From positions 1 through 49,265 of the forward strand of contig JAAFIA010000033.1 in assembly GCA_013298545.1 (NCBI GenBank): a DNA stretch of 49,265 bases. The letters run 5' to 3'. Every line of letters starts with the position of its first letter. The stretch's first letter is position 1. Positions 3,127-32,165 of the stretch are shown piece by piece. The position numbers and the translations under genes were made by a program. Source of the DNA: Bacteroidota bacterium. Its GTDB lineage: Bacteria; Bacteroidota; Bacteroidia; Palsa-965. The notes beneath the pieces were generated by a model. That model was not told where the DNA came from. It ran no database searches and saw only the letters and a program-made list of their open reading frames with translations.

Positions 3127-3906
3127 ATGACCGATTTACTTCATTCGTTTTCTGAATTAGGCAAACCCGAAAACCTCATCAATTTATTGACCCTTTCTTT
3201 GTTAGAAGTGGTTTTAGGCATCGATAACATCATTTTCGTGTCGATCATTGCCGATCGTTTGCCTAAAGAGCAGCAGAAAAAAGCATGGAATATTGGGATG
3301 ATCCTAGCGATGGTCTTGCGGGTTGGTCTGTTATTTTTCTTGGGAATAATCCTTCAGATGGACGAAAAATTGTTTACCGTTTTTGGACACCCAATGACCG
3401 GAAAGGATTTGATTTTATTGGGTGGCGGTGTATTTCTCTTGGTAAAAACAACGTCAGAAATGCATGAAAAAATTGAAGGTGGCCACGATGACGAAGAAAA
3501 CAAAACCAAGAAAAAAACAGCTCTATTTGGACAAGTGTTGTTACAAATAGCGCTGGTTAATATCGTTTTTTCGTTCGATTCGATTCTGACTGCGGTGGGC
3601 ATCAGCGATAATCTAGCAGTAATGATTATTGCGGTAATTATTTCAACGGTAGTGATGATGATTTTCTCGCGTCCGGTTGCCGATTTTGTGAACCAGCACC
3701 CAACGGTTAAAATGTTGGCGCTTGCGTTTTTGTTGATGATTGGAATGGTCTTGGTATTAGAAGCGTTCCATGTTGAGGTTCCGAAACCGTATGTGTATTG
3801 TTCCATGTTATTTGCCTTCTTGGTCGAATTGCTGAATATGCGGATGCGTCGGAAATCGGCGAAAAAAGGGGCGGCTACCCGTGAAGAAAACAAAAACAAG
3901 CATTAA
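3127..3906 (+). CDS. TerC-family integral membrane protein
   Basis: A 259-aa polytopic membrane protein with about seven hydrophobic segments. The block LLEVVLGIDNIIFVSIIADR near the N-terminus and FSFDSILTAVGISDN in the middle, each with conserved acidic residues in a membrane segment, identify the TerC family. A charged cytoplasmic loop (GGHDDEENKTKKK) separates the two halves and the protein ends in a basic tail. Family members are linked to tellurite resistance and, for some, manganese export; metal export is the likeliest role but is not shown by the sequence. The frame extends to 3073, but a TACCTTTG promoter at 3098-3105 supports the ATG at 3127. It is monocistronic, followed by tRNA-Arg. 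Confidence 0.85.
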   Translation: MTDLLHSFSELGKPENLINLLTLSLLEVVLGIDNIIFVSIIADRLPKEQQKKAWNIGMILAMVLRVGLLFFLGIILQMDEKLFTVFGHPMTGKDLILLGGGVFLLVKTTSEMHEKIEGGHDDEENKTKKKTALFGQVLLQIALVNIVFSFDSILTAVGISDNLAVMIIAVIISTVVMMIFSRPVADFVNQHPTVKMLALAFLLMIGMVLVLEAFHVEVPKPYVYCSMLFAFLVELLNMRMRRKSAKKGAATREENKNKH

Positions 3907-3931
3907 TTTTTTGCAGAAATTTTTCAATTTC

Positions 3932-3961
3932 TTGCTAGAACAATAAAAAAGCGTATTTTTG
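3932..3961 (+). promoter_or_regulatory. Promoter of tRNA-Arg
   Basis: TTG (3932-3934) and TATTTTTG (3954-3961) are separated by 19 nt, the optimal spacing for the Bacteroidota sigma factor. The tRNA begins 19 nt downstream. Confidence 0.7.
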
Positions 3962-3979
3962 CAGCCTCAATAAAGAGGA

Positions 3980-4053
3980 GGTTATGTAGCTCAACTGGAT
4001 AGAGCACCTGACTACGGATCAGGAGGTTTGGGGTTCGAATCCCTACATGACCA
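3980..4053 (+). tRNA. tRNA-Arg (anticodon ACG)
   Basis: A 74-nt cloverleaf: 7-bp acceptor stem (3980-3986 with 4046-4052, one T-G wobble), a D arm with GCTC/GAGC, an anticodon stem CCTGA/TCAGG around loop CTACGGA (anticodon ACG, read as ICG), and a T arm with GGTTCGAATCC. The CCA end is not encoded. ACG reads the CGN arginine box after A34-to-inosine editing. It has its own promoter and terminator. Partial copies of its last 15-20 nt recur at 4224 and 6693. Confidence 0.95.
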
Positions 4054-4067
4054 CTCAAGCACAAGAA
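4039..4067 (+). repeat. tRNA-Arg 3' tail repeat, copy A (the functional tRNA end)
   Basis: The 29-nt stretch covering the last 15 nt of tRNA-Arg and the following 14 nt recurs exactly at 4224-4252, and its first 15 nt recur at 6693-6707. This is the intact member of the set. Confidence 0.85.
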
Positions 4068-4068
4068 G

Positions 4069-4098
4069 CACCGCTCACTTTTCGTGAGCGGTGTTTTT
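4069..4098 (+). terminator. Terminator of tRNA-Arg
   Basis: A perfect 10-bp stem (4069-4078 with 4084-4093, CACCGCTCAC and complement), 5-nt loop, then TTTTT. Confidence 0.85.
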
Positions 4099-4217
4099 AT
4101 TTTAGCTGCGCAGCGCAAACGTTTTTTCAACGTTTTGCGCGGAGGAGCTAAAATAAAACACTACGCGATTTTTCATCGCGGAGTGTTACTTGTATTTGCA
4201 ACACGGGATTAACGGGA
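4095..4217. repeat. Palindromic repeat element P1
   Basis: A 123-nt element containing two inverted repeats: a long one bounded by TTTTATTTTAGCT and AGCTAAAATAAAA with inner GCGCAAACGTT/AACGTTTTGCGC arms, and a second, CGCGAT with ATCGCG in a CACT/AGTG frame. P2 (4278-4400) is almost identical (about five differences) and the right-hand 69 nt recur as P3 (6618-6686). It resembles a REP/MITE-like non-autonomous element. No coding capacity is evident. Confidence 0.8.
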
Positions 4218-4223
4218 AAATTC

Positions 4224-4252
4224 ATCCCTACATGACCACTCAAGCACAAGAA
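4224..4252 (+). repeat. tRNA-Arg 3' tail repeat, copy B (no tRNA body)
   Basis: An exact 29-nt copy of the tRNA-Arg 3' end plus 14 nt of its downstream flank, but with unrelated sequence 5' of it, so there is no tRNA here. It is followed by its own terminator hairpin of a different sequence and by element P2. The arrangement is tail-terminator-P, the same as after the real tRNA. Confidence 0.85.
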
Positions 4253-4281
4253 CAGTCCCGCTATTTCAGCGGGACTGTTTT
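4253..4281 (+). terminator. Terminator-like hairpin after tail copy B
   Basis: A 10-bp stem (CAGTCCCGCT, 4253-4262, with 4268-4277), 5-nt loop, then TTTT. It follows tail copy B, so it seems to be the terminator of a lost or degraded tRNA copy. Confidence 0.75.
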
Positions 4282-4400
4282 ATTTTAGCTGCGCAGCGCA
4301 AACGTTTTTTCAACGTTTTGCGCGGAGGAGCTAAAATAAAACACTGCGCGATTTTTCATCGCGGAGTGCTCCTTCTATTTGCAACACGGGATTAACGGGA
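4278..4400. repeat. Palindromic repeat element P2
   Basis: A near-identical copy of P1 with the same two inverted repeats, offset by 183 nt. It ends at the left border of the two-gene cassette. The sequence from 4401 to the next gene (4538) shows no further recognisable feature. Confidence 0.8.
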
Positions 4401-4538
4401 AGTGAATGAGAATGGGTAGGAGAATGAGTATGAATTGCCGACTCATTCAACGTACTATAAAACAGTTCGTTCGCGGTTTTTTTATTTATTTTAGTAGCAT
4501 CAAACCATTTACAATCATAGTTGACACTAGCAAAAAGA

Positions 4539-5678
4539 ATGACCTACAAATTATTATTGACCTTTTTTGTTATAAGCTTTTTATCGGCAGCGCATGTTCC
4601 AAAAGAGGCTAAGACATTTTTGTTTATAGGCACATATACGGAAGGAAAACCAGACTTCGGAATTTACGTTTTTGAATTTAATTCAAAATCGGGGCAGTTA
4701 GAACTTACTGGTCATGTAGAAGATATTACGAATCCTTCATTCTTGGCACTTGCACCCAATGGCCGTTTTCTATATGCTTGTACTGACACAAAATTGCCCA
4801 ATAGAGGAAGCGTAACAGCCTTCAAAATAGACAGCATTAATGGTAACATACAACTGATTAATAAACAACTTAGTGGTGGTGAAAATCCTGTTTATTTAAC
4901 GGTGCATAGGAACAATAAATTTGTTGTCATTAGCAATTATACGGAAGGAAATGTTTCTGTTTTTAGCACCAATGCAGACGGTAGCTTAAATCCGTATTCA
5001 CAGATCATACAGTTTACGGATAGTAGCGTCAATAAAACACGACAAGACAAAGCGTATATTCATGCTGCAATTTTTTCCGAAAATAACGACTTCCTTTTTT
5101 TGCCCGATCTTGGTTCAGACAAAATACGCGTATTCAAATTTGATTCAACTGCTTCAAAGCCAATCGCACCAGTCTCTGATTATGTTGTAAATTCCGTTTT
5201 AGGAAGTGGTCCTAGGCATTTTACATTTCATCCCAATGGGAGATTTGCATACTGCATCGAAGAACTAAGCGGTATGATTTCAGCATATTCTTATACCAAC
5301 GGGAAACTGGATTCTATCCAAAGAATACGATCTTATTCTACATTTCAAGACATTTATGCTAGTGCGGATATTCACATTTCCCCAGACGGTTTTTTTCTCT
5401 ATGCGTCAAACCGCCAATTTGAAAACTCGATTTCAATATTTTCAATAGAACAAAGCAATGGGAAACTAACATTGGTTGGACATCAAAATACGTTTGGTGA
5501 GCATCCAAGAAATTTCACAATTGATCCGACTGGAAAATTTCTTTTAGTTGCGAACTTGACAACTAATAATATTGTTGTATTCAAACGAAATTTAAAGACT
5601 GGTTTATTGACAAAAACAAAAAACGAAATACTAGTTCCTAGGCCATCTTGTTTACAAATGAGAAGATATAAATGTTGA
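4539..5678 (+). CDS. Exported lactonase-family seven-bladed beta-propeller protein
   Basis: A 379-aa protein with a signal peptide (MTYKLLLTFFVISFLSAAH). The rest is a lactonase (6-phosphogluconolactonase-like, Pfam PF10282) propeller: the opening FLFIGTYTEGKPDFGIYVF, the repeated pattern ...LAPNGRFLYA..., FHPNGRFAYCIEE, ISPDGFFLYASNR and DPTGKFLLVAN. Enzymes of this fold hydrolyse 6-phosphogluconolactone or other lactones, but an exported form more likely acts on an extracytoplasmic lactone or only shares the fold. I chose the ATG at 4539 rather than 4521 because it begins the signal peptide directly. The gene lies with the next one in a relatively AT-rich cassette bracketed by P elements and tRNA tails, which suggests acquisition by transfer. 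Confidence 0.85.
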   Translation: MTYKLLLTFFVISFLSAAHVPKEAKTFLFIGTYTEGKPDFGIYVFEFNSKSGQLELTGHVEDITNPSFLALAPNGRFLYACTDTKLPNRGSVTAFKIDSINGNIQLINKQLSGGENPVYLTVHRNNKFVVISNYTEGNVSVFSTNADGSLNPYSQIIQFTDSSVNKTRQDKAYIHAAIFSENNDFLFLPDLGSDKIRVFKFDSTASKPIAPVSDYVVNSVLGSGPRHFTFHPNGRFAYCIEELSGMISAYSYTNGKLDSIQRIRSYSTFQDIYASADIHISPDGFFLYASNRQFENSISIFSIEQSNGKLTLVGHQNTFGEHPRNFTIDPTGKFLLVANLTTNNIVVFKRNLKTGLLTKTKNEILVPRPSCLQMRRYKC

Positions 5679-5793
5679 CTGTTTATACAAGAAGTTGAGA
5701 AAGAAAGGTAACCAAGAATTTTTTATAGCTTTGGTATAAGACTATTACTCCATACCATGCTCAATTTCATAACAGCATTTAAAAAATAATCCC

Positions 5794-6570
5794 ATGAATT
5801 CCATTCAATTATACCACATAAGATATTTTATTCTGTCCATATCCATACTGCTGTTGAGCACAGCACTTTGTGCACAAAAGATTCAAATTACGACCAGAAA
5901 GTGTACAATTACAGCAGCCGAGAAAAAGCAAATTTCGGCTATGGCTGTGCAGGAAGCACTTTTTTTCAAGGAGGTATTTGGTGAGAAAAGACTCATGCCG
6001 CTTCGCATTATTATTTATGGTTCTAAAATAGAATACAAAATAAAAGCGTGGAAAAATGATGTTCCCAATAGCGCCGGTTTTTACTCGCCAAAATCAAAAA
6101 CCATGTATTTGATGAAAACAGAACGATTTGTTAATGTCTGTTTTCATGAAATGGTTCATGCTATCTACCACAATTACAGCAATAAAATTCCGACATGGAT
6201 CAATGAAGGACTGGCAGAGCATTTCGAATACGCATCAGTAGATACATTGGGGCGTGTTAGATTTCCAATTCGAAAAAAACTTGTGCAGCAAACAAATGAT
6301 TATTTATCCAACCCGCAACGTATAATTCGATCTTGTCTCAATAAGTCCTATTCAAGTTTTCACAATTTCAGAGAGCATCGAAATTATTCAGTTTCACGAG
6401 GTATTGTAAACTATTTATTCTTCAACAATAAAGAAATGCTATTTACGATTATGCAACAATTGCGTACAGAGAAAAATAGTGTTAAAGTAATTAACAACAA
6501 CTATACTGGCGGAATTCAATCGTTTACAAAAGACATTAAGGATTGGTGCGCGAAAATTGCTGCGGAGTAA
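5794..6570 (+). CDS. Exported HExxH metallopeptidase-like protein
   Basis: A 258-aa protein with a signal peptide ending near LLLSTALCAQK (residue 28). Residues 118-122 are HEMVH and are followed by INEGLAEHFE with Glu138, which together form a gluzincin-type zinc site (HExxH plus downstream Glu) as in peptidase-MA-like proteins. The pattern FYSPKSKTMYLM before it, and the TWINEGLAE segment, also fit that group. It should be a periplasmic or lipid-anchored metalloprotease, substrate unknown. It is 115 nt downstream of the lactonase-like gene on the same strand, inside the cassette bracketed by P2 and P3, and has similar AT-rich composition. Confidence 0.75.
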   Translation: MNSIQLYHIRYFILSISILLLSTALCAQKIQITTRKCTITAAEKKQISAMAVQEALFFKEVFGEKRLMPLRIIIYGSKIEYKIKAWKNDVPNSAGFYSPKSKTMYLMKTERFVNVCFHEMVHAIYHNYSNKIPTWINEGLAEHFEYASVDTLGRVRFPIRKKLVQQTNDYLSNPQRIIRSCLNKSYSSFHNFREHRNYSVSRGIVNYLFFNNKEMLFTIMQQLRTEKNSVKVINNNYTGGIQSFTKDIKDWCAKIAAE

Positions 6571-6617
6571 TTGTTGTTGTTTCATTTGTAAACCGCCATA
6601 GACGTTTATTTGTTTGG

Positions 6618-6686
6618 AAAATAAAAACGCTGCGCGATTTTTCATCGCGGAGTGTTACTTGTATTTGCAACACGGGATTAACGGGA
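6618..6686. repeat. Palindromic repeat element P3 (partial)
   Basis: The right-hand 69 nt of the P element, including the CGCGAT/ATCGCG hairpin and the terminal GGGATTAACGGGA. The left half with the long inverted repeat is missing. It is followed, 6 nt later, by a tRNA-Arg tail copy. Confidence 0.8.
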
Positions 6687-6692
6687 AGAATC

Positions 6693-6707
6693 ATCCCTAC
6701 ATGACCA
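6693..6707 (+). repeat. tRNA-Arg 3' tail repeat, copy C
   Basis: Fifteen nt identical to the last 15 nt of tRNA-Arg, directly after P3. With copy B at 4224 it brackets about 2.4 kb holding the two cassette genes. Confidence 0.75.
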
Positions 6708-6744
6708 ACCTGTTTTCCGGTATCTCCACTAAAAAATTCATCCC

Positions 6745-6789
6745 AAAAAAAACAAAACAGGTTGCCTCGGAGGAGAAGCAACCTGTTTT
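6745..6789 (-). terminator. Terminator of the 1473-aa T9SS gene
   Basis: A 12-bp perfect stem (AAAACAGGTTGC, 6754-6765, with 6778-6789) followed on the minus strand by a T-rich run. It lies 21 nt past the stop. Confidence 0.85.
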
Positions 6790-6810
6790 AAACCATTGAC
6801 AACAGAAAAA

Positions 6811-9800
6811 CTATAACCGTAAAATCCGAATTATCGAAACCTTATTTTCAGTAAACACATTCAAAAAATAAATCCCACTTGCAAATTCACTTGTATTCAA
6901 TTCAAACATGCTTGAATTTACCGCTGTTCGTAAGATCAAACTACCCGTTAAATCATAAACTTCAATCTGATCAATCAATCCTGTTGCACGAATGGTTGTA
7001 GCTGTTGTTACCGGATTTGGGAAAACGTGAACAGTATTTGTCTCCAACGAAACAACATCGGTGCAGAGTTCGACATAAGCAGTTGTTGTATCTGCATTGG
7101 CACAACCGTTAGCATCTGTATAAGTATAGATCAAATCGTTTGCTCCTAATTGTGCCGATGATGGATTGAAAATATTGCCATTCACGCCTGGCCCACTGAA
7201 TACTCCACCAGCCGGACTTCCATTCAATTGAATGCTGCCAATACTCAAACAAAATGTGTCTTGTGCAAGAGAAAAACTCACCAAGGGCAATGGATTAACT
7301 TGAATGGTAATGTTTGCACTATCGGTACAACCGTTTGTAGAAGTTCCAATGACGGTATAAGTTATGGTCGCATTTACGGTTTCATTAATTGTATCACCTA
7401 CGTTGTTATTGGGCATCCATACATAAGTACTTGCCCCTGCTCCAACCAATTCAATATTGGCTTCACCGCATACACTCAAATCAGATGCGTTAGCCAAAAC
7501 TACTGGCGATGCATTTACGGCAATAGCTAAGGTGGCCGTGTTACTACATCCATTTGCCCCAACACCAGTAACCGTATAAGTTGTTGCTACACTTGGCGAA
7601 GCAGTAACAGCACTTCCAGTCAACAAGCCCGGCAACCAAGTATAAACCGTTGCACCAGATGCTGTCATCGAAACAGCATTTCCAGAACAAATTGTAGGTG
7701 TTGATGTATTTGCAACAACTACTGGGCGTGGCAAAGCTGTAATGGCAATAGTGGCCGTATTCGTACACCCATTGGCATTTGTTCCTGTAACCGTGTAAGT
7801 TGTGGTTAATGTTGGAGCAACAGAAACACCACTACCTGTCAAAGAACCAGGCATCCATAAATAAGTTGAAGCACCACTAGCATTTAGGGTAACGGAAGAA
7901 CCTGCACAGATCGCTGTTTGATTTGTACTAGCGGTAACAGTTGGAAGCGAATTTACGGTAACTGCAAGTGTTGTTGTTGCTGTACAACCCACAGCATCTG
8001 TTCCCGTAATCGTATAAGTTGTGGTTGATGTTGGTGATACGGAAACCGAGTTGCCAGCCAGAGCACCCGGCATCCACAAATACGTTGATGCACCACTGGC
8101 ATTCAATGTTGTTGATGAACCAACACAGACTGATGTTTGGCTTGTGTTTGCAGCAACCGTTGGCAATGAATTAACAACAACAGCAAGAGTTGCTGTCGCG
8201 GTACATCCTGCTGCATTTGTTCCTGTAATTGTATAAGTTGTGGTTGTTGATGGCGATACTGTAACCGAGTTTCCAGTCAAAGCACCCGGCATCCATAAAT
8301 AAGACGATGCGCCACTAGCACTCAATGTTGTTGATGAACCAACACAAATTGATGGTTGGCTTGCCGTTGCCAAAACTGTTGGAGGGATTGAAACAGATAC
8401 AGTTGAAAAATCAGTTTTACCCGTACACGCATGCGTTGTAGAACCAATCATAACTTGATATGCGCCGCTTGTATTGGCAAAATAAGTAGCCGTAGTTTCG
8501 CCAACAATAGGGCTACTATTTTGAATCCATTGATACGTTGTATTGGCAACAACAGGAACACTCAATTGAATCGAATCGCCAGAGCAAATTGCGGCAGGTG
8601 CTGTTGGCGAAATAGCAATTCCTGCACGCTCGGCACACGTTGTAATTTGAAAAATAGTAAGCGTACTCGATGTTTCATTGGCCAAAATAATTTGTGCATG
8701 GCCATTTGGTGAAAGAGAATCTGGAATAAAAATAATTCCTTCCGAACCCCGATCAGGGCCATTTGTTGACACACTCCGATTGTTGTAATAACCTACAAAA
8801 ATTGGACTCGCCGGATTGCTAATGTTATAAATAACAACACCGCCAATTCGTTCCAATGCAACAAAAGCGTATTGTTCGCCATTAATTTTTCCTACTGCTG
8901 TTCCTTCTGGCTCAGGACCTTTATCATCACTTCGATTCTTCGCTGTGGCTGATGTGCTGTTGCTCGCATTAAACATGGCTCCAAATACCGGATGTGTAGC
9001 GGTCATTAACTCCAACTGATTACCGCTATCAAAAACTAAAGCACCCGTTGTAGCATTCCAAATCGAAAACGAACGCGATCCGTAAGTATAGATTTCATCA
9101 AAATCGCCATCATTATCCGTGTCGCCCAATTTGTTTGTCGCATTCAAACGACCTAGAAATAAATTTGATTTCATATAAGCACCATAAGGAAAAGCGGTTG
9201 CATCTAATGGCAAACCCGAAATACGCGACTCTTCATTCAATCCGGTATAAGCGCGCGCATCGCCTTCATTAGCCGTAATGAGATAAACCTGATTGCCAAT
9301 GGTAAACTGACTTAAAGCATCAGGTTGGTACATACCTTTTACTGGAAAATTAGAAATGCTAATACCCGCAGTTTGATCAGATGCATCCAACGCATTGTTT
9401 CCTGTACTGTAATCTTTATAGCCCAATGGTCTAATCTGAACAACTGTATTGGTTTGCAAATTAATTTCGGCAATGGCATTATTTTCTTGCAAGGTTACCC
9501 AAGCTTTCTGATCGTTATCCGAAATGGTAATGTACTCCGGCTCAAAATCTTTTGCTGCCGTTGCTGCTGGTCCGTAAATACGAATGCCCTGTGCGCGTAA
9601 TGTACTTTCTTGTCCGTTAAATGCCGTGAAGGTGATGAAGGTAACATTCGCTTGTGTAACATTGGCAACACCACCACTAATATCCACCATCACAACCGAA
9701 CCATCAGGATCATTGGTATAAGCCGTATTCGGTTCTCCTTCGCAAGCCGTATAAACTTTTGTTCCAGCATGATTGAACGTAATCATGTCAGGCATGGCAC

Positions 9801-28939: not shown

Positions 28940-30172
28940 TTACATACCCAATTTATTTTTCAAATTGGTATCCAAAGCGCTCAGGAATTCGTCTGTATAT
29001 AAATAATGTTCGCCGTGATTCACTTTATTGCCATGGATGCAAACAGCTAAGTCTTTGGTCATTTTACCACTTTCAACAGTTTCTACACACACTTGTTCGA
29101 GTGCATGGCAGAAATTGATGAGTTCTTGATTGCCATCGAGTTCGCCGCGGAATGCGAGGCCGCGTGTCCAAGCAAAAATAGATGCAATGGGATTGGTTGA
29201 TGTTGGTTTTCCGGCTTGGTGCTCGCGGTAATGACGTGTAACGGTTCCGTGTGCGGCTTCGGCTTCCATGATTTTTCCGTCAGGAGTAGTCAATACCGAA
29301 GTCATTAATCCAAGTGAACCAAAACCTTGTGCAACGGTATCGCTCTGAACGTCGCCATCGTAGTTTTTGCAAGCCCAAACAAAATTTCCGTTCCACTTCA
29401 AAGCAGAAGCTACCATATCGTCGATGAGGCGGTGTTCGTAAACAATACCAGCAGCCGCGAATTGATCTTTATATTCTGCATTGAAAATTTCTTCGAAAAT
29501 ATCTTTGAAGCGACCATCGTATTTTTTCAAAATGGTATTCTTCGTAGAAAGATACAAAGGCCATTTTTTCATGAGGGCCATGTTGAAGCATGACTTGGCA
29601 AAACCGCGAATAGATTCTTCGGTATTGTACATGGCCATCGCAACGCCATCGCCTTTGAAATTATACACTTCAAAAACTTGTGGCGCAGATCCGTCTTCAG
29701 GTGTAAAGGTCATGGTTAATTTCCCTTTCCCTTTAATAACCGTATCGGTTGCGCGGTATTGGTCGCCAAAGGCATGACGGCCAACAATGATTGGTGCAGT
29801 CCAGTTTGGAACTAAACGGGGAACATTCTGACAAACGATTGGTTCGCGGAAAACAGTACCGTCAAGGATATTGCGGATGGTACCGTTTGGCGATTTCCAC
29901 ATTTGTTTAAGGTTAAATTCTTTTACGCGTGCTTCGTCGGGAGTAATGGTTGCACATTTGATACCAACACTGAACTGCTTGATTGCGTTAGCAGCATCAA
30001 TAGTAACTTGATCGTCTGTTTGATCGCGGTATTCAATTCCAAGATCGTAATATTTGATATCAACCTCAAGGTAAGGAAGGATCAATTTTTCTTTGATGTA
30101 TTTCCAGATGATGCGGGTCATCTCGTCACCGTCGAGTTCAACGACTGGGTTGGCGACTTTAATTTTGTTCAT
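28940..30172 (-). CDS. icd: NADP-dependent isocitrate dehydrogenase (type II)
   Basis: A 410-aa cytoplasmic enzyme that oxidatively decarboxylates isocitrate to 2-oxoglutarate with NADP, a step of the citric acid cycle and a source of NADPH. It begins [19 protein letters not shown] and contains [21 protein letters not shown], the substrate-binding segment with SPNGT and Arg residues, [32 protein letters not shown] and [16 protein letters not shown]. These features and the length match the homodimeric eukaryote-like subfamily rather than the E. coli type. It is monocistronic with its own promoter and terminator. It may cooperate physiologically with the transhydrogenase encoded in this window to balance NADPH. 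Confidence 0.96.
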
Positions 30173-30214
30173 AGTGATGTGTAAAAGATGAGATTGAGTG
30201 CTTTTTTAACGGTG

Positions 30215-30222
30215 CAAAACTA
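30215..30222 (-). promoter_or_regulatory. -7 promoter element of icd
   Basis: TAGTTTTG on the minus strand, 42 nt before the ATG at 30172. No -33 element at ideal spacing. Confidence 0.5.
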
Positions 30223-30350
30223 CATAATCTGTGGCAATAATCGGGTTATAACAGATTTAAAAAAAGAGATTTAAAGACATTAGGCTTATTGCCTTCATTT
30301 GCTTCGATGTGTTTTTAACAGCATTTGGGCTAACCTTATATTTTGTTGAC

Positions 30351-30387
30351 AAATAAAAAAGGGTTGGCCCCCACAGCCAACCCTTTT
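30351..30387 (-). terminator. Terminator of the PKD T9SS gene
   Basis: A 12-bp perfect stem (AAAAGGGTTGGC, 30357-30368, with 30376-30387), 7-nt loop, T-rich tail on the minus strand. Confidence 0.85.
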
Positions 30388-30410
30388 CCGTTCAATTATG
30401 CAAACAAAAA

Positions 30411-32165
30411 TTATTCGCGAATGAAGGCTTGTCGTTGAACACTACCGTCTTTCGATTGAACAATGACCAAATAAATACCGGGTGCAAAAGAAGAGGCATC
30501 TACTTGATATTGATTTTTACCAGAAAGTGTTGGTGCAGCAACATCTTGCCCGTTTGAGTTAATGACCCGAATGCTTGTTGGATTTGGATCGCTGATCAAG
30601 ATTGTTACTTGGCCGTTGGTTGGGCTAGGGAATACTTGCAAGCCGTTTCCATCTGTTGGCGCAGGCATGCGAGAATCGTGGCCTGTTGAAATAACAATCT
30701 TCTTGCAGATTTTATCTTCACACTTGTCGATGGTGTTTCCGTTTGCGTCGTATGAGCAAATGGTTACAGTCATGCACATCAGGAATGTTCCTGTTGTTGG
30801 GTAAGTGTGTGCTGCTGGCATAGTTGGGCCATTGTAAACAAGTGATCCATCACCAAAATCAACTTGGTAGTTGCAGATTGATCCGCCAGTATAGGTAGTA
30901 GCATCAAAGAAGAATGCCGTAAATGGATTGTTGATAGAGATAGCATAGAAGAAATCTGGTTTTACTTTGCAAGGCTGCGGATCGCAGACATCTACTTCGT
31001 AACAGATTTTTTCGCAGCATGTTTCGCCATCAGAACCAACAGCGATGATGGTCAGACACACTTTATACGAACCTGATGCACCATAATAATGCAATGGGTT
31101 TTGAAGTGTTGATGTTTGTCCATCACCAAATTGCCAGAACCAAGAAACAACGCTTGCAGGAGCGCTGTTTGCGCCATAGAATTGAATTGGGTTACAACCG
31201 TCCCATTTGAAATCTGGTTTTGCTTCGCAAGGTACAAAGCAGTTTTGGGTGCAATTGGATTGGTAATAAAGTCCAGCAAAAGCTAAGTTGTAGCAATCGC
31301 CAGGAGCAAATACTCCAAATACAGAAGAAGATTGACCAGCAGTTACAGTAGTTGGTTGATCAACATAGTTCCACCAATCCCAAGCAGTAACAGTAAATGG
31401 AGGATTTCCATTCAATGTAACGGTATTGTTTGGAAACTGAAAATCGCCAACACCCACAAAAGCGCGGGCATTGAATGTTCCAGCAGGGCATGCATTGAAA
31501 CCATTGATGGTTTGGCCTACCGATCCATTCACAACGGTGTTAACGATAGCGCCATCCCAGATGATGATATCGCCAGCAAAAGCTGCAGAAGGTACACTCC
31601 AGATAACCATCATGGTTGCTCCGTCGATGTCATTTGTTCCGCCAGAAGAAGTACTGGTTGGGAAACCGCTTAAGGTGTAATTTCCATTACCACTAATGGT
31701 AGTCGTAACATCTGCACGGTAGGTATGAGAACCTGGATAGCCCCAGCATTTGTCCACATCACTTCCTACAAGAACAGAAGGAATAGTAAATGAAGTTGCA
31801 GCAGGATTAACAACGGTAATGTTGAATGGTGCGCCATTGCCAGAAGCATCGCTCCATACAAATGCACGTTCAATTACTGCACCTCCTGGAATACCAGCAA
31901 TGGTAAATGTTGCCGGTTGTGCAGCACCGATGGGAGAGAAACGCTGACCAAGACGGCGTGTTGCAGTAGTGTAATTGAGACCGCATTTGCTGGCTTGATA
32001 AGCTGGGCCGAGTACGCGATTGCCATTTAGTGGGGTGTAGGGATTGCCCGCTGTTTGAAATGTTTTTGTTTTGCCGCAACTTGGTGAGCCTTCTGCTCCT
32101 TGCGCGCCTGCTTGAAGTGTTCCTAACAGGAGTACTCCTGTCATTAATTTGAAAAGTGTTTTCAT
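30411..32165 (-). CDS. T9SS cargo with PKD domains, Cys-rich
   Basis: A 584-aa secreted protein. Signal peptide (MKTLFKLMTGVLLLGTLQAGAQ), an N-terminal beta-sandwich region of about 290 residues (AFVWSDASGNGAP, ADVTTTISGNGNYTLSG, VVIWSVPSAAFAGDII) resembling DUF3344-like surface domains, two PKD-like domains (about 315-385 and 399-470, with WQFGDGQTS and VDFGDGS), and a T9SS type A domain (FPSPTNGQVTILI...GIYLVIVQ) at the end. Many Cys residues (CTQNCFVPC, TCCEKIC) suggest disulfides outside the cell. The start at 32165 begins the signal peptide directly. It is probably a surface or extracellular protein. Confidence 0.82.
   Translation of the reverse strand: MKTLFKLMTGVLLLGTLQAGAQGAEGSPSCGKTKTFQTAGNPYTPLNGNRVLGPAYQASKCGLNYTTATRRLGQRFSPIGAAQPATFTIAGIPGGAVIERAFVWSDASGNGAPFNITVVNPAATSFTIPSVLVGSDVDKCWGYPGSHTYRADVTTTISGNGNYTLSGFPTSTSSGGTNDIDGATMMVIWSVPSAAFAGDIIIWDGAIVNTVVNGSVGQTINGFNACPAGTFNARAFVGVGDFQFPNNTVTLNGNPPFTVTAWDWWNYVDQPTTVTAGQSSSVFGVFAPGDCYNLAFAGLYYQSNCTQNCFVPCEAKPDFKWDGCNPIQFYGANSAPASVVSWFWQFGDGQTSTLQNPLHYYGASGSYKVCLTIIAVGSDGETCCEKICYEVDVCDPQPCKVKPDFFYAISINNPFTAFFFDATTYTGGSICNYQVDFGDGSLVYNGPTMPAAHTYPTTGTFLMCMTVTICSYDANGNTIDKCEDKICKKIVISTGHDSRMPAPTDGNGLQVFPSPTNGQVTILISDPNPTSIRVINSNGQDVAAPTLSGKNQYQVDASSFAPGIYLVIVQSKDGSVQRQAFIRE

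Follow-up and report, generated by a model that had tools for sequence, protein, structure and literature searches.

Small tRNA-tail repeat units behind a tRNA-Arg gene of a Bacteroidota bacterium, and their possible kinship with minimal mobile elements that encode GIY-YIG nucleases

In the genome of a Bacteroidota bacterium (lineage Palsa-965; assembly GCA_013298545.1), the transfer RNA (tRNA) gene tRNA-Arg(ACG) is followed by copies of its own 3′ tail that alternate with a hairpin-rich repeat, which we call P. The window, i.e., the whole stretch of DNA analyzed, has 49,265 nucleotides and is one whole contig (JAAFIA010000033.1) of a draft genome of 4.53 Mb in 154 contigs. We consider it somewhat likelier true than false that this array consists of small tRNA-tail repeat units without an open reading frame (ORF), which are species-specific members or relics of a group of minimal mobile elements of Bacteroidota. 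Our results suggest that the arrangement is not peculiar to this locus but reflects a little-noticed class of very small tRNA-adjacent mobile elements, many of them encoding a GIY-YIG nuclease. An earlier note on this DNA, made from the sequence alone, proposed that the tRNA 3′ end had repeatedly been a site of insertion or recombination; the own-tail repeats at many tRNA genes and the tandem arrays described below support that proposal.

The intact tRNA-Arg(ACG) gene (3980–4053, with the end at 4053/4054; ARAGORN, and Rfam RF00005 with 67 bits) does not encode CCA and, like the repeat units behind it and the two genes of their insert, lies on the forward strand. Its last 15 nt, ATCCCTACATGACCA, begin in the T loop, end at the discriminator base and occur exactly three times in the window (4039–4053, 4224–4238 and 6693–6707), with none expected from shuffled sequences. 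The first two occurrences extend to 29 nt (4039–4067 and 4224–4252) through the linker CTCAAGCACAAGAA, found behind the gene at 4054–4067, and the third ends at the discriminator base. The tRNA is followed by terminator hairpin 1 (4068–4098), the first P (4095–4218), a tail copy, terminator hairpin 2 (4252–4282), which is unlike the first in sequence, the second P (4278–4401), a 2.2-kb insert, the second half of a third P (hairpin 2 and the 3′ part, 6618–6687) and the last tail copy. The positions given earlier for tails and P elements were thus borne out, and the two full P copies are 97% identical. P is made of two hairpins, a long hairpin 1 (4095–4158 in the first copy, an inverted repeat, I3, with covarying pairs) and hairpin 2 (4159–4185, with the core CGATTTTTCATCG), inside the closing stem of the unit, where CAAGCACAAG of the linker (4056–4065) pairs with CTTGTATTTG at 4189–4198; these pairs are kept in the units at Arg(ACG), Arg(CCG) and Arg(TCT). 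The unit of the window may be described as a terminator, followed by hairpins and by a 3′ partial copy of the neighboring tRNA that is altered in its T loop, and this partial local copy behind terminator and hairpin is present twice in the window (4224–4238 and 6693–6707), in line with the genome-wide behavior of tails.

A genome-wide search for P, as the earlier note had advised, found a further P at tRNA-Arg(CCG) (contig C67), where it carries the CCG gene's own tail, ATCCCTTCGGGACCA, and not the ACG tail, and a decayed relative beside tRNA-Arg(TCT) (contig C37). Loci of tRNAs were located by Rfam and then read. Because an earlier tail-match control was inflated by T-arm sequence common to tRNAs, a masked 12-mer test was used instead. 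An exact 12-nt copy of the gene's own tail within 1 kb downstream was found for 7 of the 38 tRNA genes outside a phage-like cluster, versus 0 of 1376 mismatched tRNA/locus pairs. Besides the Arg genes, own-tail copies lie downstream of Ser(TGA), Ser(GGA), two Met genes and Asn, and behind tRNA-Phe stand three units of 141 bp whose tail copy is weaker; every tail copy matches its local tRNA. Partial copies also occur on the 5′ side, at Thr(CGT) (L069), Gly(GCC) and Leu(TAA) (both L077) and Leu(TAG) (L080), where they stand upstream of the tRNA with a leader, lack a nuclease gene, form tandems at Thr and Leu(TAG), and bear a palindrome of the TCCCGAT...TCGGGA type in the D loop or anticodon arm. 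The upstream region had been meant as a control for partial copies; since it holds real ones, they are counted here as a finding. As a separate observation, what is probably a phage or prophage contig (C74) holds a cluster of about 14 divergent tRNAs (29702–32092), among them a second gene each for Arg(ACG) and Asn, with one hairpin of the same palindrome type inside the cluster. A genome-wide enrichment of the CAAGCACAAG motif (42 versus 9 in the control) was discarded as a lead, since the 30 hits that were read looked unrelated except for the tRNA-Arg units.

That the tail attached to one repeat body changes with the tRNA bears directly on another explanation, namely that a tyrosine-integrase island entered at the tRNA 3′ end and lost its integrase, the tail copies being its attachment (att) sites. 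It is true that the tails end at the discriminator base as att cores do and that an AT-rich insert lies between them. However, the units measure only 100–400 bp, their tails stand in tandem with tRNA terminators, and it is GIY-YIG genes rather than integrases that the class goes with; we regard such an island as very improbable, and largely refuted already. The absence of an integrase gene, pointed out before, was confirmed: only a lactonase gene and a DUF1570 gene lie between the repeats, so the integrase between att repeats that marks an integrative island was not found. The suggestion that went with it, a mobile island whose integrase was lost or acted in trans, is not supported, given the variety of tRNA tails and the small unit size; the units read and their surroundings showed no integrase gene, and what the autonomous relatives encode is a GIY-YIG nuclease.

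This nuclease is found in the same genome, where the repeat unit at tRNA-Asn (L091, contig C35), present in tandem in an array that contains a run of N in the draft, encodes a 93-amino-acid protein matching PF01541 (5.6e-12). Each of the five small GIY-YIG matches in this genome has a tRNA immediately upstream (Asn for three, Val for a truncated one and Leu(CAA) for a degraded one). Residues Y6, Y17, G19, R27, H31 and E64 are invariant across the GIY-YIG set, and the domain together with these predicted catalytic residues places the autonomous relatives in the GIY-YIG family. Close relatives of the Asn-locus protein occur in 16 genomes (its own included) in a set of 59 relatives, and for most of their genes a tRNA lies 20–130 bp upstream and a partial copy of it comes after the gene. 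A profile of small GIY-YIG proteins matches 182 of 295 genomes of the class. Among 70 loci, sampled with a preference for high-scoring hits, 60 have an upstream tRNA on the same strand, at 100 bp or less in 54, with 16 tRNA species represented; several of the other 10 have little upstream contig. A partial copy of the same tRNA follows the ORF in 49 of the 60 tRNA-linked loci. Tandem arrays of terminator, GIY-YIG ORF and pseudo-tRNA beside a single intact tRNA were read at L091, L228, L244 and L248, with near-identical units, up to ten of them in L248. Flavobacterium hungaricum (beside Asn) and a Mesonia (beside Leu) carry the gene with partial copies; the hit of Gillisia mitskevichiae follows tRNA-Asn with no partial copy, and that of Pedobacter ureilyticus has no upstream tRNA within the stretch examined. 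In another genome (G235, locus L212), a GIY-YIG unit sits at tRNA-Arg(ACG) itself, so that the very tRNA species of the window is occupied elsewhere; the order there is two 5′ copies, sharing a hairpin stem but with different loops (AAAGC and TAATT), then the intact tRNA, a terminator, the GIY-YIG gene and a 3′ copy.

The partial copies have a recognizable anatomy. As a rule they begin in the D or anticodon arm and continue to the 3′ end. They often have a hairpin in place of an arm or inside a loop such as the T loop, commonly YCCCGA...TCGGGR, with an upper stem that varies in sequence yet still pairs. We counted 41 instances of this palindrome in 73 kb of GIY-YIG loci versus one in 82 kb of tRNA-Arg loci (≈46-fold enrichment). 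Some loci also have, in front of the intact tRNA, 5′ partial copies that bear a hairpin of this type. The full form of the element would then be an intact tRNA, a terminator, a gene for a GIY-YIG protein of about 90 amino acids and, behind it, part of the same tRNA again, with a hairpin in the T loop or in place of the anticodon arm. The core of P hairpin 2, CGATTTTTCATCG, recurs as the hairpin that replaces the anticodon in one GIY-YIG element (L258). P is thus linked to the class by its position, the own-tail rule, the other ORF-less units of the genome, the altered T loop and this 13-nt core, and we think it fairly probable that P belongs to it; given that the nuclease ORF is missing at 3900–6900, the array of the window can be filed only as an ORF-less relative or a relic. 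Independently of P, short tail-repeat units in two species, each at another tRNA (L086 at Phe; L113 at Arg(ACG) of G003), have a hairpin core, CGCTAAAAATGTCnnCCnGACATTTTTTTnACGC, in common and form a second ORF-less family.

A conserved hairpin base under a variable but pairing upper stem, set in tRNA arms, could also recall the single-strand hairpins of repetitive extragenic palindromes with their RAYT transposases (REP/RAYT) or of integron attC sites, and arrays of ORF plus hairpin site resemble cassettes. In that case a Y1 or tyrosine recombinase would act on folded DNA to mobilize the units, and recombination would take place at the hairpins rather than at a double-strand break. The recurrent ORF is nonetheless a GIY-YIG nuclease, and no transposase or integrase gene lies beside the copies read, no systematic search for one in trans having been made; we hold this explanation to be improbable. 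A further candidate, an RNA-guided nuclease with the tail as its guide, was rejected, as no such gene was found and the intact tRNA would itself be targeted.

Mobility is most directly visible at the tRNA-Val locus of one genus, which 7 species have with the GIY-YIG unit and 9 without it. The left flank is common to most of the loci compared, and for one of the empty loci the downstream sequence is only 131 nt long. The presence/absence pattern expected of a free-standing homing endonuclease element was thus found for GIY-YIG units at tRNA-Val, and not for P. About 28 tRNA-Arg(ACG) loci of other genomes, a few with little downstream contig, have no exact copy of their own tail, and one (L113) has its own short repeats; together with the orthologous tRNA-Val sites, these loci lend further support to the idea of insertion or recombination. 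Flanking genes differ at the tRNA-Arg(ACG) loci compared, which yields no strict empty-site comparison for the window: an empty site with the same flanks was not found, and TerC, the lactonase and their neighbors are absent beside the other tRNA-Arg loci tested.

We hypothesize that the nuclease cuts tRNA genes and that the break would be repaired from an element-bearing template, with tRNA sequence serving as homology arms, the intact tRNA on the 5′ side and the pseudo-tRNA tail on the 3′ side. Such an insertion would keep an intact tRNA and push the recipient's own tail downstream; if the local tail is displaced in this manner, every tail matches its own tRNA, as observed. The observed tandem arrays would result from repeated insertion events, and ORF-less units may spread or amplify in trans or via recombination between tails. 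A stronger version, which we find possible but doubtful, holds that widespread autonomous Bacteroidota elements of about 300–450 bp use the GIY-YIG enzyme to home into tRNA genes, that the resident copy is broken by a hairpin put in place of an arm and the element supplies the sole intact tRNA, and that the P array is a non-autonomous satellite spreading among tRNA-Arg genes. If true, losing the element would deprive the cell of an essential tRNA, a form of hostage retention.

Several points weigh against placing the window array among these elements. No GIY-YIG ORF is present at 3900–6900 or anywhere else in the window, so the unit of the window lacks the nuclease that defines the full form, and P has no match in 59 relatives or among 395 genomes of the class. 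As P is known from its own genome only, no cross-species comparison of it is possible, and its descent from a GIY-YIG unit is a matter of inference. P has no recognizable segment of a D or anticodon arm, nothing in GIY-YIG units corresponds to its long hairpin 1, and the core held in common with L258 covers just 13 nt. As for the class itself, the association counts come from the sample that favored high-scoring hits, and the right flank at tRNA-Val is too little conserved for the exact right junction to be matched. Cutting of tRNA genes by the chromosomal GIY-YIG proteins is deduced rather than seen, and the model leaves unexplained how the intact tRNA of the element escapes being cut; nor does its simple form need the 5′-only partial copies without a nuclease gene found at some tRNAs.

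The main rival is a structured-RNA role for P. The array would be an RNA gene of the type of E. coli rtT, i.e., a structured by-product or sponge RNA from tRNA processing, multiplied by unequal recombination between tails with no mobile element involved. P lies directly behind the tRNA and folds as a closing stem with hairpins, and 7 of 38 predicted pairs show compensatory change across four copies. The same anatomy is seen at tyrV/rttR of E. coli MG1655 (L179), where we read tail copies at exactly +178, +356 and +534, each unit reading as a partial tRNA-Tyr copy with a structured T-loop insert. On the other side, P sits behind the tRNA's terminator, its fold rests on four copies with a small covariation term (−0.69), and an Rfam scan of 3900–6900 gave only the tRNA as significant, with no known RNA family for P. 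Such an RNA gene also leaves unexplained the P with a different, matching tail at tRNA-Arg(CCG) and the nuclease-coding units of the same anatomy at other tRNAs. We think this explanation of the array rather unlikely.

The insert between the second P and the partial third one (4402–6617) has the second half of P on both sides as a direct repeat (4333–4401 and 6619–6687). It contains a gene for a lactonase-family, seven-bladed beta-propeller protein (4521–5678, with an ATG at 4539 also possible; PF10282, 3.8e-108) with a signal-peptide-like N-terminus, and a gene for a probably exported DUF1570 protein of the HExxH type, with an HEMVH motif (5794–6570; PF07607, 3.1e-6). The relative AT-richness noted before for the pair holds, with 35.0% GC against 41.9% for the window, near its lowest 2.2-kb stretch. 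Relatives of both genes elsewhere in the family are not beside tRNAs, and PADLOC gave only marginal matches (17 bits) to defense genes in the cassette or unit. The pair was probably trapped between two P copies by the recombination proposed above for the units; that it is cargo is unproven.

If our reading of the class is correct, a large share of the tRNA loci in one bacterial class may hold partial, hairpin-disrupted copies of their own tRNA, in units that often encode a nuclease small enough to have been overlooked. Draft assemblies tend to break at such arrays. We found no description of such elements in bacterial chromosomes in the limited open-access literature searched.

Among known systems, integrative elements and islands that target tRNAs likewise duplicate a tail at the tRNA 3′ end, but the units described here have no integrase, measure hundreds of bp and involve many tRNA species per genome. 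Fungal mitochondrial homing-endonuclease elements that duplicate the 3′ end of their host gene also combine a nuclease ORF with a donor-supplied gene end and a displaced original end downstream, although in mitochondrial protein genes and not in bacterial chromosomal tRNA genes. The rtT repeats at E. coli tyrT/tyrV (178 bp; RttR/tpr) resemble our units in their length of about 180 bp and in the 19 nt of tRNA tail repeated exactly at their end; unlike our units, rtT has no nuclease gene and its tail encodes CCA. The Rfam scan of 3900–6900 gave no rtT hit and no sequence relation to P was recognized, so the likeness is architectural only. The class suggests a possible origin for these long-known repeats. 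A further comparison is with SegB, a free-standing GIY-YIG homing endonuclease of phages T4 and T6, which cleaves its tRNA-containing locus and amplifies a 718-bp unit of tRNA-Tyr and segB in tandem (PMC13096335). There, as here, a GIY-YIG gene adjoins tRNAs of many isotypes and forms tandem repeats of tRNA and nuclease, in a recombination-dependent manner (PMC13096335). The Bacteroidota units differ in being chromosomal, in encoding only about 90 amino acids and in usually having one intact tRNA followed by disrupted partial copies, whereas the T6 unit repeats the full tRNA-Tyr gene. The amplification by SegB is the experimental parallel for the mechanism proposed here, and the Bacteroidota elements provide a chromosomal counterpart to it.

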